This document shows, piece after piece, positions 1-8,032 of a stretch of 34,841 bases of DNA. Every line of letters starts with the position of its first letter. Within the stretch, counting starts at the first letter, position 1. The notes beneath the pieces are model-generated. The model searched no databases and had not been told where the DNA came from. It was given only the letters and a program-made list of their open reading frames with translations. The stretch lies in NCBI GenBank assembly GCA_022562935.1, contig JADFOI010000026.1, forward strand, positions 1 to 34,841, given 5' to 3'. This DNA is from Acidobacteriota bacterium (GTDB lineage Bacteria; Acidobacteriota; UBA6911; RPQK01; JADFOI01). The position numbers were made by a program, and so were the translations under genes.

Positions 1-267
1 TTTCAACAAATCGATGGTCCAGTCGACCGGCTCACCCGCCTTGATCATCATCATGATTTTGCGTGGCCTTTCCAGCGAGTCGATCAATTCTTGGATGGAG
101 TGGGAACCTAGAATCTGCTTGTCTTGAGCCTGATTCTTGATGAATTTCTCCACCTCCTCCGGCTCTCGGTCCCAGACGGCAGTCGTATAACCGTTACGCT
201 CAATATTGAGGGCCAGGTTCCTCCCCATCACTCCCAGTCCGAGCATGCCAAACTTAACCTTGGACAT
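1..267 (-). CDS. gnd: 6-phosphogluconate dehydrogenase, N-terminal 89 codons (runs off the window edge)
   Basis: Reverse-strand translation MSKVKFGMLGLGVMGRNLALNIERNGYTTAVWDREPEEVEKF...RPRKIMMMIKAGEPVDWTID: Rossmann GxGxxG and the MMxxAGxPVD motif of 6PGDH. Absent from the ORF track because it has no stop in the window. Confidence 0.93.
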   Translation of the reverse strand, partial: MSKVKFGMLGLGVMGRNLALNIERNGYTTAVWDREPEEVEKFIKNQAQDKQILGSHSIQELIDSLERPRKIMMMIKAGEPVDWTIDLLK

Positions 268-302
268 CTGGGCAACCTCCTGATTCACACGAGTGAGTCT
301 CC

Positions 303-435
303 AGCCCGGATGATGCATAAATTCTCTACCGCATCGCCGAAATCACTCGTCCTGACTGTGTTGCGCGACCCGCAGGCGGGTGCCACCGGCTCGCCCCTGG
401 CCCTTCGTGACGAGAACCTATGCATCATCCGGGCT
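303..435. repeat. Family A inverted-repeat element (MITE-like), copy 1
   Basis: Ends AGCCCGGATGATGCATAA ... TATGCATCATCCGGGCT are inverted repeats; internal GCGCGACCCGCAGGCGGGTGCC is shared with the copy at 18563-18717; no transposase inside. Confidence 0.85.
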
Positions 436-492
436 AGGGAAATTCAGGGCCCTCAGCAACCCCCTTCTTGCACAGCGCTGAGCAATCCCTTC

Positions 493-945
493 TTACCTGG
501 TAAGTCGTGTCTCCATTTTCATGACCTTGTCCAGCCGCCGCTGATGTCGCTCAGCCTTGGAAAAACGCGCCGCCAGGAAGGCACGAATCAAGTCATCCGC
601 CAGCGATGGACCGATGACCCTGGGACCCAGGCAGAGAACATTGGCATCATCATCCTCGCGACTCTGGCGGGCTGAGAACACATCGTGGCAAAGGGCGGCC
701 CGAATACCCGGCACCTTGTTGGCCGCAATGCTGGTCCCCACACCGCTACCACAAAGGAGAATTCCCAGTTCGGCTTCTCCCTTGACCACAGCCTCGCCCA
801 CGGCTTTCGCATAGTCCGGATAGTCCACAGGATCTGTGTTGTGAGTGCCAAGATCCAAAACGGCATGTCCCTCTTTTTTCAGTAATTCGATGACTTGGTC
901 CTTCAGGGGAAAACCTGCATGATCGGCCCCAACGGCTACGCGCAT
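493..945 (-). CDS. rpiB: Ribose-5-phosphate isomerase B
   Basis: 150 aa, MRVAVGADHAGFPLKDQV...GILLCGSGVGTSIAANKVPGIRAALCHD, RpiB/LacAB signature. Confidence 0.95.
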   Translation of the reverse strand: MRVAVGADHAGFPLKDQVIELLKKEGHAVLDLGTHNTDPVDYPDYAKAVGEAVVKGEAELGILLCGSGVGTSIAANKVPGIRAALCHDVFSARQSREDDDANVLCLGPRVIGPSLADDLIRAFLAARFSKAERHQRRLDKVMKMETRLTR

Positions 946-1072
946 CTTTTTCTCCTTAAAAGTGAAATGGTGAAGGCCCGAAACATCGAACTAATGGTCT
1001 CCAATAAATGGACAAATAGCAACCGGGAAAACTGCGGATGTCCCCATATTTCATATTTCCCCATATTGCACA

Positions 1073-2158
1073 TTAACGGATCTTTCCACGGGCCTTAACA
1101 ATCCACGATTCTACAACTTCTTCGCCCCGACAGCCGAAAATGACATCGTGCATGTTGACCGTAGCGCAGATATGATTGGGAATGACTTGCACCGTCTGGC
1201 CGACCTCCAGCTTGGCCTCATCAGGAACCTTCAAATAGCCATGTTCTTCATTCATCTTCACAAACTGGACCTCCGGGAAGCCTTTCACCAAACCGAAGCC
1301 TCCTTTTTTTCCCACTCTGAGCGGGTCACTGGAGAAGGTCTTTGAACCCCCATCGATGATGGCCTGTCCGGTGACAGCCCGACTCACCACCGTCGTCACA
1401 ACGGAGGCCGCACAATGGTCCTCGCTACAGGTCTTCCATTCCAGGGAATGACGGTCGTTAAAAATATAGGTGCCGGGACGGATTTCGGTTAGAGCGGGGA
1501 TATGGTGAGAGTAAAACGCCGACGGGGTGCTTCCACCACTTACCCGGTGAACCGGGACTTTCTGTTTCTCAAAGAACTCCACCTGTCGCTGGAGATCCGA
1601 GTTGAGCTGGTCCAATTTTCGACTGCTGTCTTCCCAATCGGGGTAAATATGCCCCGGGTAAAACATGAGCCCCTCAAAGCGGAGTCCTGCCGTAGAATCG
1701 ATCAACCGCGCCAGCTGAACTGCAGCAGGTCCCGGCTTCAAGCCACAGCGCCTCATACCTACATCGATCTCCACCAACACATCGATCGATTTGCCATCAG
1801 CGGCCCGGGCAACCCAACTGAGAGATTCCTCCGAATCGAGAGAGACGGTGATGCGGGCTCTTTCCAGCACTGCACCCAAGCGAAGAGCTTTGGCATCTCC
1901 AAAGAGAGGATAGGCCAGCAAGAGATCGTCAAGGCCTTCTTCACTCATGACCTCTGCTTCACCCACCTTGGCCACCGTAATTCCACGGGCTCCGAGGTCC
2001 ATTTGCTTTTGGGCGAGCTGAGGGATTTTATGGGTTTTGGTGTGAGGTCGAAGATTCAGGCCGTGCTCATGGCAATAATCGGCCATCCGTTGCAGGTTGC
2101 CTTCCATCCTGTCCAGATCAACGATCAGGGCGGGTGTTTCCAATTCATGAATTTTCAT
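1073..2158 (-). CDS. D-threonine aldolase / D-serine dehydratase-like PLP enzyme (alanine racemase N-terminal fold)
   Basis: 361 aa; ETPALIVDLDRMEGNLQRMA...LRPHTKTHKIPQLA is the PLP-Lys region of this family; C-terminal metal/substrate region VIPNHICATVNMHD. Confidence 0.88.
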   Translation of the reverse strand: MKIHELETPALIVDLDRMEGNLQRMADYCHEHGLNLRPHTKTHKIPQLAQKQMDLGARGITVAKVGEAEVMSEEGLDDLLLAYPLFGDAKALRLGAVLERARITVSLDSEESLSWVARAADGKSIDVLVEIDVGMRRCGLKPGPAAVQLARLIDSTAGLRFEGLMFYPGHIYPDWEDSSRKLDQLNSDLQRQVEFFEKQKVPVHRVSGGSTPSAFYSHHIPALTEIRPGTYIFNDRHSLEWKTCSEDHCAASVVTTVVSRAVTGQAIIDGGSKTFSSDPLRVGKKGGFGLVKGFPEVQFVKMNEEHGYLKVPDEAKLEVGQTVQVIPNHICATVNMHDVIFGCRGEEVVESWIVKARGKIR

Positions 2159-2169
2159 CCCGAGGGGTT

Positions 2170-2604
2170 TCAGTTATTTACGGTGTATGCGAAATTCCAG
2201 TTGAACTCCCCCCAGGGCAGGCTGATGGGGACCATGTATTTCACGGTAATAAAGACAAAACCACCTTCCTTCTCCACGAGGATATTGTCCCTGCTCAAGG
2301 CTATTCGCAGATCTATGGCCTCCAAGAGGACGGCCTCCCTGATTTGCTCAATCTCCTCTCGCCCTCTGCCGGTCCCATATTTGGTCTCAGCAAGTACCCC
2401 GGCCGCGGCATAACCGGCAATTCGAAGCGCTGCATTTCGAAACTGGTAATCGTCTATAGAGGGAGGACCAAATTTGTAACCCCCATAGGCGAGAATCATG
2501 ATCGCCAGAATAACGATAAGGCACCCTGCATTGGTCGCGCCGTGCTCGTGAACAATTCGCTTTCGAAAACGGTGAATTTTCAATGCTTGTTCCCTCTTGT
2601 CCAT
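2170..2604 (-). CDS. Hypothetical membrane-anchored protein
   Basis: Start at MDKREQALKI (2604) avoids overlap with the upstream gene; one hydrophobic segment NAGCLIVILAIMILAYGGYKFG; no family recognised. Confidence 0.6.
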   Translation of the reverse strand: MDKREQALKIHRFRKRIVHEHGATNAGCLIVILAIMILAYGGYKFGPPSIDDYQFRNAALRIAGYAAAGVLAETKYGTGRGREEIEQIREAVLLEAIDLRIALSRDNILVEKEGGFVFITVKYMVPISLPWGEFNWNFAYTVNN

Positions 2605-2623
2605 CTCAAAGCTGTCCTTGATC

Positions 2624-3724
2624 TTACCCCTCACGTTGCCGTGGGGAAAGGGCGATCGTGACGGCCGCACCGTCGCCAAGCTTCAAAGCCTCCCGCAGGT
2701 TCACAGGGGCCAACAATTCAACGACATCCGTGGTATCGGAGGGGACCTCAGGCAGTACAATGGCACCCGCAATCTGGCCCTCCACGCTGACTGAGTAACA
2801 ACGTGCCGCACAGTAACCCGTCTCCGGCTCCAGAGTCTTGCCGGGATGACTGCAGAGTTCCTTCCACATGGTTTTGTCTTGGGCCCTCTCCAGCCGAATA
2901 TTGAGTGTACCGGGGTAGGGCTCAAAGTGAAACCCATCGGCCACTTGTTTCCGAACCCATGGGAGCCGGGTGAAGGCAGCTGCCTCACCCTTTCCGCTTA
3001 CGATTCGTCCGCGCAACCAGCCAAAGGCCCTGGCAAGAGGCAGGACTTCCTTGAGCGAAGAGATCCGCGGCGAGTGATGGATCTCATCGGAACCATCACG
3101 CTGAATCAGCACTGCTCGAATGCCCAGGGACTCCGCAGGCTCGATGTCTTCCACGGGATCATTCCCCACGTGGATCACTTCTTCCGGCCGGGTTGTGGCT
3201 CTCTCCAATGCCAGCTCGAACAGTCGCGTCCCCGGCTTGGCGTATCCCTGAACCTCGGAAACCACCATGAAATCGAAATAATGGGCAATTCCCAGGTTCT
3301 CACACAACTCCTGGAGTCTGGGTTCCCAGTTGGAAACCGCCCCCACCAGAAACCCAGATTCCTTCAGCCCTTGCAACATAGGAATGGTCTCCGGGAAAAG
3401 GCGGAAAACGGGTGCACTCACCCACGAGTCCCAGATCCCCTTCTGGCAGCTGTCGAAGTGCTTCCTCACCCCCGCTTGGCGGAGAAAAACCGCAATCAGG
3501 TTCTCACGCCGTGCTTGCTCCTTACGGGCGGAGACTTTAAACCCTGGACCAGATCCGCTGGAGACCACAGGACCGGTCTCCTCTTGTGCCTTTCTGATCC
3601 AGGCACCAATCTGCTCTCTTGTGGAGGGATAGCCATATTGGTCCAGAATATCCGCATAGGCCGACTCCGGGTCTCCCATCTCCAGTAGGGTCCCGCCAAC
3701 ATCCAGGAAGATTGCTTTAGTCAT
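2624..3724 (-). CDS. HAD-superfamily hydrolase fused to a DUF120 / CTP-dependent riboflavin kinase-like domain
   Basis: N-terminal HAD motifs FLDVGGTL, VGAVSNW, YAKPGTRLFELAL, HVGNDPVEDIEPA; C-terminal RGRIVSGKGEA...GFHFEPYPGTLNIRLE...AGAIVLPE...DVVELLAPVNLREALKLGDGAAVTI matches the archaeal RibK (DUF120) pattern. Confidence 0.82.
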   Translation of the reverse strand: MTKAIFLDVGGTLLEMGDPESAYADILDQYGYPSTREQIGAWIRKAQEETGPVVSSGSGPGFKVSARKEQARRENLIAVFLRQAGVRKHFDSCQKGIWDSWVSAPVFRLFPETIPMLQGLKESGFLVGAVSNWEPRLQELCENLGIAHYFDFMVVSEVQGYAKPGTRLFELALERATTRPEEVIHVGNDPVEDIEPAESLGIRAVLIQRDGSDEIHHSPRISSLKEVLPLARAFGWLRGRIVSGKGEAAAFTRLPWVRKQVADGFHFEPYPGTLNIRLERAQDKTMWKELCSHPGKTLEPETGYCAARCYSVSVEGQIAGAIVLPEVPSDTTDVVELLAPVNLREALKLGDGAAVTIALSPRQREG

Positions 3725-7117: not shown

Positions 7118-8032
7118 CTACATCATCCTTTTGATGATGTTCTGACCTTGCTCCTTGCTGAGGCCCAGGGATCGATAGGCCAAGGGACCCCCTTCATCCA
7201 GCACGGGTTCCAGCTGGCCCAAAGTCGGTTGCTCCTTTTGCAGGAACAGTCCCGTGTAGATGGTATCTCCCCACATCAGGGCTTTCTCACAGGCGCTTTT
7301 CCAATCGCTGGTGTCATGGCCCTCGTCCTCGAGTTTCTTAACCCGTGGTTTGAAAAACTTGTAGTCGTTATCGTGGTTGAAGGTCACGCAGGGACTAAAG
7401 ATGTCAATCAGAGAAAACCCCTTATGTCGGATCGCCTTTTTCATCAGGTCCACCAGATGCTTGCCATCGCCGCTGTAGCCACGGGCCACAAAGGTCGCTC
7501 CGTTCATGATGGCCGAGGTGATCGGATTGACCGGCATTTCCACGCTGCCAAAGGGTGTACTCTTGGTCTTCATCCCCTTGGAGCTGGTGGGAGAAATTTG
7601 TCCCGTGGTCAGACCATAGATCTGGTTGTTCATGACGATATAGGTCAGGTCCACATTGCGACGGGCCGTGTGCACAAAGTGGTTCCCACCAATACCGTAT
7701 CCGTCCCCATCCCCACCCGTGGCAATAATGGTGAGTTCGTGGTTGGCCAACTGCACACCGGTGGCCACGGCCAAGGGTCGGCCATGAAGGGTATGCATCC
7801 CATAAGAATTGATGTAACCGGGCAAATTGGAGGAACAGCCGATCCCACTCACGGTTACAATCTGGTGGGGCAGGAGGCCCAGCTCCGCACAGGCTTTCTG
7901 AAGGCCCTTCAGGACTCCAAAATCGCCACAGCCCGGGCACCAGTCGGGTTCAACGGGTCCCTTAAAATCCTTGGCCTGCAATGAAGCAGGCGGCTGGTCC
8001 GGCATATCCTGTGTCGTATCTCTAATCGTCAT
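7118..8032 (-). CDS. korB: 2-oxoacid:ferredoxin oxidoreductase, beta subunit
   Basis: 304 aa; WCPGCGDFGVLKGLQKA, GCSSNLPGY, THLGRPLAVATG-like region, GDGDGYGIGGNHFVHTARRNVD: TPP-binding beta subunit. Confidence 0.92.
   Translation of the reverse strand: MTIRDTTQDMPDQPPASLQAKDFKGPVEPDWCPGCGDFGVLKGLQKACAELGLLPHQIVTVSGIGCSSNLPGYINSYGMHTLHGRPLAVATGVQLANHELTIIATGGDGDGYGIGGNHFVHTARRNVDLTYIVMNNQIYGLTTGQISPTSSKGMKTKSTPFGSVEMPVNPITSAIMNGATFVARGYSGDGKHLVDLMKKAIRHKGFSLIDIFSPCVTFNHDNDYKFFKPRVKKLEDEGHDTSDWKSACEKALMWGDTIYTGLFLQKEQPTLGQLEPVLDEGGPLAYRSLGLSKEQGQNIIKRMM

Follow-up and report, generated by a model that had tools for sequence, protein, structure and literature searches.

Why should a bacterium keep an archaeal-type riboflavin kinase, and why should this kinase be joined to a HAD hydrolase? 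The question is raised by a gene (P0001) located at positions 2624..3724, on the reverse strand, of the window, i.e. the whole stretch of 34,841 nucleotides that was analyzed; the host is an Acidobacteriota MAG (G000) of 3.44 Mb, 89% complete. The gene starts with the ATG at 3724, ends with the stop codon at 2624-2626, which is counted in these coordinates, and codes for 366 amino acids.

The original prediction of a HAD hydrolase at the N-terminus and a DUF120/RibK domain at the C-terminus was borne out by Pfam. PF00702 matched residues 3-201 (3122..3718, reverse strand; E 7.5e-17, 62.8 bits against a cut-off of 26.4), and PF01982, the CTP-dependent riboflavin kinase (DUF120) domain, matched residues 241-358 (2651..3004, reverse strand; E 2.2e-26, 92.6 bits against a curated cut-off of 25) nearly at full length, positions 1-120 of the 121 in the profile being covered. 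No match to the flavokinase profile PF01687 was obtained anywhere in the protein. It is confirmed that a HAD domain and an archaeal-type RibK domain are joined in one bacterial protein.

When the C-terminal 129 residues alone were compared with the PDB, riboflavin kinases were the only matches: the MJ0056 structures 2oyn, 2p3m and 2vbs-2vbv (approximately 1e-12) and Thermoplasma 3cta (4e-4). The alignment with MJ0056 extends over the whole domain and shows conservation of GTLN (residues 272-275; 2900..2911, reverse strand), of the GxGE loop as GKGE (residues 244-247) and of the E-hhAP-LRE stretch as ELLAP..LRE. In MJ0056, the GTLN, ELLAP and LRE segments contact Mg, flavin and nucleotide, the Thr and Asn of GTLN being Mg ligands. 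From these conserved segments, CTP-dependent phosphorylation of riboflavin by the domain is likely but unproven. Scores for the NCBIfam equivalogs were under the cut-offs (NF040694, ribK_Meth, 68.5 against 168 bits; NF010762, 72 against 279 bits), and the AlphaFold2 model, computed with the window protein and its 91% relative alone in the alignment, was not usable (pLDDT 37.6). The window protein differs from MJ0056 in having a bacterial host with RibF, a fused HAD and a place in a separate clade, described below. In the archaeal RbkR (TA1064; 3cta) the RibK domain is also the C-terminal part of a fusion, but its N-terminal partner is a DNA-binding (HTH) domain and not a HAD. Archaeal RibK fusions such as RbkR, and the annotation of DUF120 in bacteria, e.g. 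in Azoarcus, are already known; no description of a HAD-RibK protein was found in a search that covered mainly open papers.

A profile search of 396 Acidobacteriota genomes detected PF01982 in nine. The order HAD-RibK was found in five of these: G000 and, with identities to the window protein of 91, 76, 57 and 44%, G226, G306, G140 and G095. Since the same fusion recurs in other genomes, it is not an accident of assembly. The closest public relative (91%) is JACZQQ01, a MAG named 'Acidobacteria bacterium'. In a sixth genome, G330, which belongs to a sister genus of the same family, the order is reversed to RibK-HAD within a single reading frame of at most 367 amino acids. The HAD of G330 belongs to the phosphoglycolate phosphatase/PpaX type and bears a canonical DIDGT, whereas the window-type HAD is REG-2-like with DVGGT. 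Two different HADs at opposite ends of RibK argue for two separate fusion events, and the repeated joining suggests a functional link between both activities. The remaining PF01982 genomes contain stand-alone proteins of another type (G217 and G241) or a fragment at a contig end (G193). Viral contigs and phage records yielded no relative of the window protein.

The stand-alone proteins of G241 (L012 1489-1902, reverse strand) and G217 (L013 1462-1884, reverse strand) represent a divergent second DUF120 type on a long branch, in which the CAARC region described below is missing and VATD-LRD replaces the AP-LRE segment.

On contig C91 of G000 (L116 and L002, compared with window positions 1-3724) lies another RibK copy, which is incomplete because the contig ends within it. 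It has the same 152-aa and rpiB neighbours and lacks the hydroxyaspartate aldolase-like gene; gnd-zwf-pgl-like genes lie beside it. Both arrangements occur in G226 as well (L004 and L005). Most parts of the two regions, with rpiB as the exception, show higher identity between the species (93-95%) than between the two copies (89-93%), so that the second region looks like the product of an old duplication with gene conversion; the same identities disfavour contamination or a strain mixture as its source. Within the window, an unannotated protein of about 150 amino acids without a Pfam match (2170-2679, reverse strand) adjoins RibK in G306 and in both copies of G000 and of G226. Next to it (1073-2158, reverse strand) is an alanine-racemase/D-serine-dehydratase-type protein, near the 3-hydroxy-D-aspartate aldolase BhcC although far under the cut-off (220 of 690 bits), which is the gene that the second region lacks.

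RibF had been named as the usual bacterial enzyme, and this proved correct: a RibF-type flavokinase is encoded in the window genome, in all nine PF01982 genomes and in 37 of the 38 genomes of the class, the only genome without it being 65% complete. As every tested PF01982 genome also encodes RibF, the RibK domain supplements RibF and does not replace it. Neither a recognizable riboflavin gene nor, in an Rfam search, a riboswitch was found in the window.

Among the bacterial proteins of the plasmid collection, the closest relative was AZKH_RS23515 (WP_015451796.1) of Azoarcus sp. KH32C, with 37.7% identity. In a maximum-likelihood tree this protein, the HAD-RibK fusions and the RibK-HAD fusion of G330 formed a clade (support 100/99) apart from archaeal RibK and from the G217/G241 type; the support for the HAD-RibK group alone was moderate (86/84). 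The clade shares a CAA[RK]C region, which reads CAARC in the window protein (residues 305-309; 2798..2812, reverse strand) and CAAKC in Azoarcus, G330 (CAARS) and G140 (CAGHC) being deviant. GT[LF]N was present in every member for which that region was available, and the GxGE loop, intact in the window protein, is altered in G140 (GKRE), G095 (GVKA) and G330 (GQGK). The Azoarcus protein is stand-alone and has a NUDIX gene adjoining, whereas the window protein has its HAD fused. The Azoarcus gene lies in a phenylphosphate carboxylase operon with the order ppcB-ppcD-ppcA-ppcG-ubiD-ubiX-DUF120-NUDIX, where the DUF120 gene begins at locus base 7968 and overlaps by 4 bases the end of ubiX at 7971. 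This single record is the operon evidence for a RibK gene beside ubiX.

UbiD was taken from this operon for a test of co-occurrence, and not from a screening of many families. The genomes of the RibK clade contain 14 (G000), 14 (G226), 15 (G306), 12 (G140), 15 (G330) and 13 (G095) UbiD genes; those with the other RibK type contain two (G217) and one (G241). Across the phylum, where counting was resolved up to seven per genome only, at least seven UbiD genes were found in just 7 of the 396 genomes, and all six genomes of the RibK clade are among those seven. Within the class, G131 has 14 UbiD genes without RibK, and the other genomes without clade RibK have 0-6. Uncorrected Fisher tests of RibK against UbiD richness gave p values of 1.4e-12 at the level of genomes, 6e-8 for genera and 8e-4 for families. 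Given the relatedness of the genomes, the family-level value is the fairest of the three, the six representing two families and so few independent events. Neither RibK nor UbiD was found in G258 and G282, of the same family, and four UbiD genes but no RibK in G218, of the genus of G095; these are incomplete MAGs (65-77%), in which absence is less certain. Three UbiD proteins sampled from G000 scored above the TIGR00148 UbiD cut-off. One ubiX above the cut-off was found in each RibK genome, and no RibK gene lay in the ubiX neighbourhoods of the six genomes, nor does the Acidobacteria RibK gene stand beside ubiD. The clade is thus associated with ubiX/ubiD by genome co-occurrence and by the Azoarcus operon. 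No report linking a riboflavin kinase to UbiX/UbiD was found in the open literature, to which the search was largely confined.

The UbiD expansion itself, in these six genomes and G131, amounts to 12-15 copies in 2.7-3.5 Mb with a single ubiX, the number in most Acidobacteriota being 0-2. Four of the copies of G000 lie within about 23 kb on contig C85.

The supply of the UbiX substrates FMN and dimethylallyl phosphate (DMAP) in cells is understood only in part, and without the mature cofactor many recombinant UbiD enzymes fail. This cofactor of UbiD enzymes is prenylated FMN, which UbiX forms from reduced FMN (PMC10865409). As RibK is almost confined to genomes packed with UbiD, it probably aids the synthesis of the prenylated-flavin cofactor, which is the simplest use for a second FMN source that tracks the number of UbiD genes. 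We give a probability of roughly 0.45 to the reading that the window protein is an accessory CTP-dependent riboflavin kinase, fused to a HAD, that feeds FMN to UbiX for prenylated FMN. RibF would remain the housekeeping kinase and FAD synthetase. The RibK domain, to judge by homology and conserved ligand residues, would turn riboflavin into FMN with CTP being spent, and co-occurrence and the Azoarcus operon suggest that this FMN would go mainly to UbiX and serve the large UbiD set. What was observed is the fusion with its homologues and motifs, the co-occurrence with UbiD and the order of the genes in Azoarcus; the whole chemistry of this scheme we infer. Several observations speak against it: RibF should already provide FMN; the Acidobacteria gene does not adjoin ubiX or ubiD; G131 manages 14 UbiD genes without RibK; the independent events are few (two families) and the operon record is one; the GxGE loop is altered in three members; and the HAD lacks Asp+2 and, in the window species, has Asn in motif IV. 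Extra copies of RibF as an alternative in UbiD-rich genomes were ruled out, at most one RibF being found per genome of the class.

The closest family of the window HAD is TIGR02252 (REG-2-like), with 120.5 bits, under its cut-off of 155.2. In motif I, DVGGT (residues 8-12; 3689..3703, reverse strand), the nucleophile Asp8 is kept and Gly10 takes the position of the Asp+2 acid/base. DVGGT was found in G000, G226, G140 and G095, i.e. in all HAD-RibK fusions with an available N-terminus; the DxD of HAD phosphatases is absent from this type of HAD, and DIDGT occurs solely in the reversed fusion of G330. Motif II Ser131 and motif III Lys163 are present in the window protein. Motif IV is GNDxxxD in the window genus, its first Asp being replaced by Asn in the window species, and GDDxxxD or GDNxxxD in G140 and G095. 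A guess at the role of the HAD is that it acts on a related phosphate, either DMAPP, giving DMAP as the prenyl donor of UbiX, or a flavin phosphate, or that it regulates only. Because Asp+2 is absent and motif IV begins with Asn, supply of DMAP is doubtful for the window HAD, which is possibly a regulatory or inactivated domain; an inactive partner has a precedent in plants, where an FAD synthetase is joined to a dead pyrophosphatase (PMC9678776).

In E. coli, DMAP is produced from DMAPP by NudJ and other Nudix enzymes and from prenol by ThiM (PMC12359138), and UbiD, UbiX and Nudix are reported to share a polycistron (PMC5852087). The Azoarcus NUDIX gene and the fused HAD could be DMAP suppliers for UbiX. 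A narrower version of the accessory-kinase reading, in which the bacterial RibK clade is a dedicated supplier for prenylated FMN and the fused or adjoining HAD or Nudix partner gives DMAP, both substrates of UbiX then coming from a single protein, seems unlikely.

The intact GTLN, ELLAP and LRE segments across most of the clade also bear on the idea that RibK has changed its substrate, for example to make DMAP from prenol or to act on dephosphorylated prenylated FMN, or that it merely binds prenylated FMN as a chaperone. A non-catalytic chaperone of this cofactor, LpdD, exists (PMC10865409), and the constant presence of RibF, the distinct clade marked by CAA[RK]C and the altered nucleotide loop of three members would all fit; given the retained segments, we consider such a change improbable.

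A flavin make/break switch, in which RibK makes FMN and the HAD hydrolyses it, had been proposed in analogy to the plant enzyme AtFMN/FHy. The parallel stands for the order, HAD and then riboflavin kinase, and for the kinases being of different families (PF01982 here, RibF/flavokinase type in the plant); it fails for the HAD, which is an active FMN hydrolase in the plant and lacks Asp+2 here. Because FMN hydrolases, like other HAD phosphatases, have this residue and DVGGT does not, the 'break' half is doubtful. AtFMN/FHy does pair the same activities in one bifunctional enzyme (PMC9678776), and HAD and RibK were joined twice, once with a canonical DIDGT-bearing HAD. Nevertheless, with RibF always present, REG-2-like proteins and not FMN hydrolases as the nearest HAD family, no riboflavin gene or riboswitch recognized in the window and the UbiD link left unexplained, the proposal is weakened to a slim chance, and the evidence points to the prenylated-FMN (UbiX/UbiD) system instead.

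An equally slim chance is given to neutral, lateral acquisition of an archaeal-type kinase, the UbiD link then reflecting the shared ancestry of a few genomes. The small number of independent lineages, with its family-level p of 8e-4, and the lack of chromosomal linkage to ubiX/ubiD agree with this explanation, but the protein retains at least 44% identity and most of its motifs, a HAD was fused on two separate occasions, and the clade member of another phylum, Azoarcus, sits inside a UbiX/UbiD operon. That the fusion is a late riboflavin-pathway enzyme, its HAD being the 5-amino-6-(5-phosphoribitylamino)uracil phosphatase, is very improbable: HAD enzymes carry out this step in bacteria, but the similarity to YigB is weak (30.6 bits against a family cut-off of 225), Asp+2 is absent, the genome has other HADs, and nothing ties the gene to riboflavin genes, none of which was recognized in the window.

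If the accessory-kinase reading is true, a kinase that tracks UbiX/UbiD would be a new accessory factor, and it would explain why an archaeal-type kinase is kept beside RibF in some bacteria.
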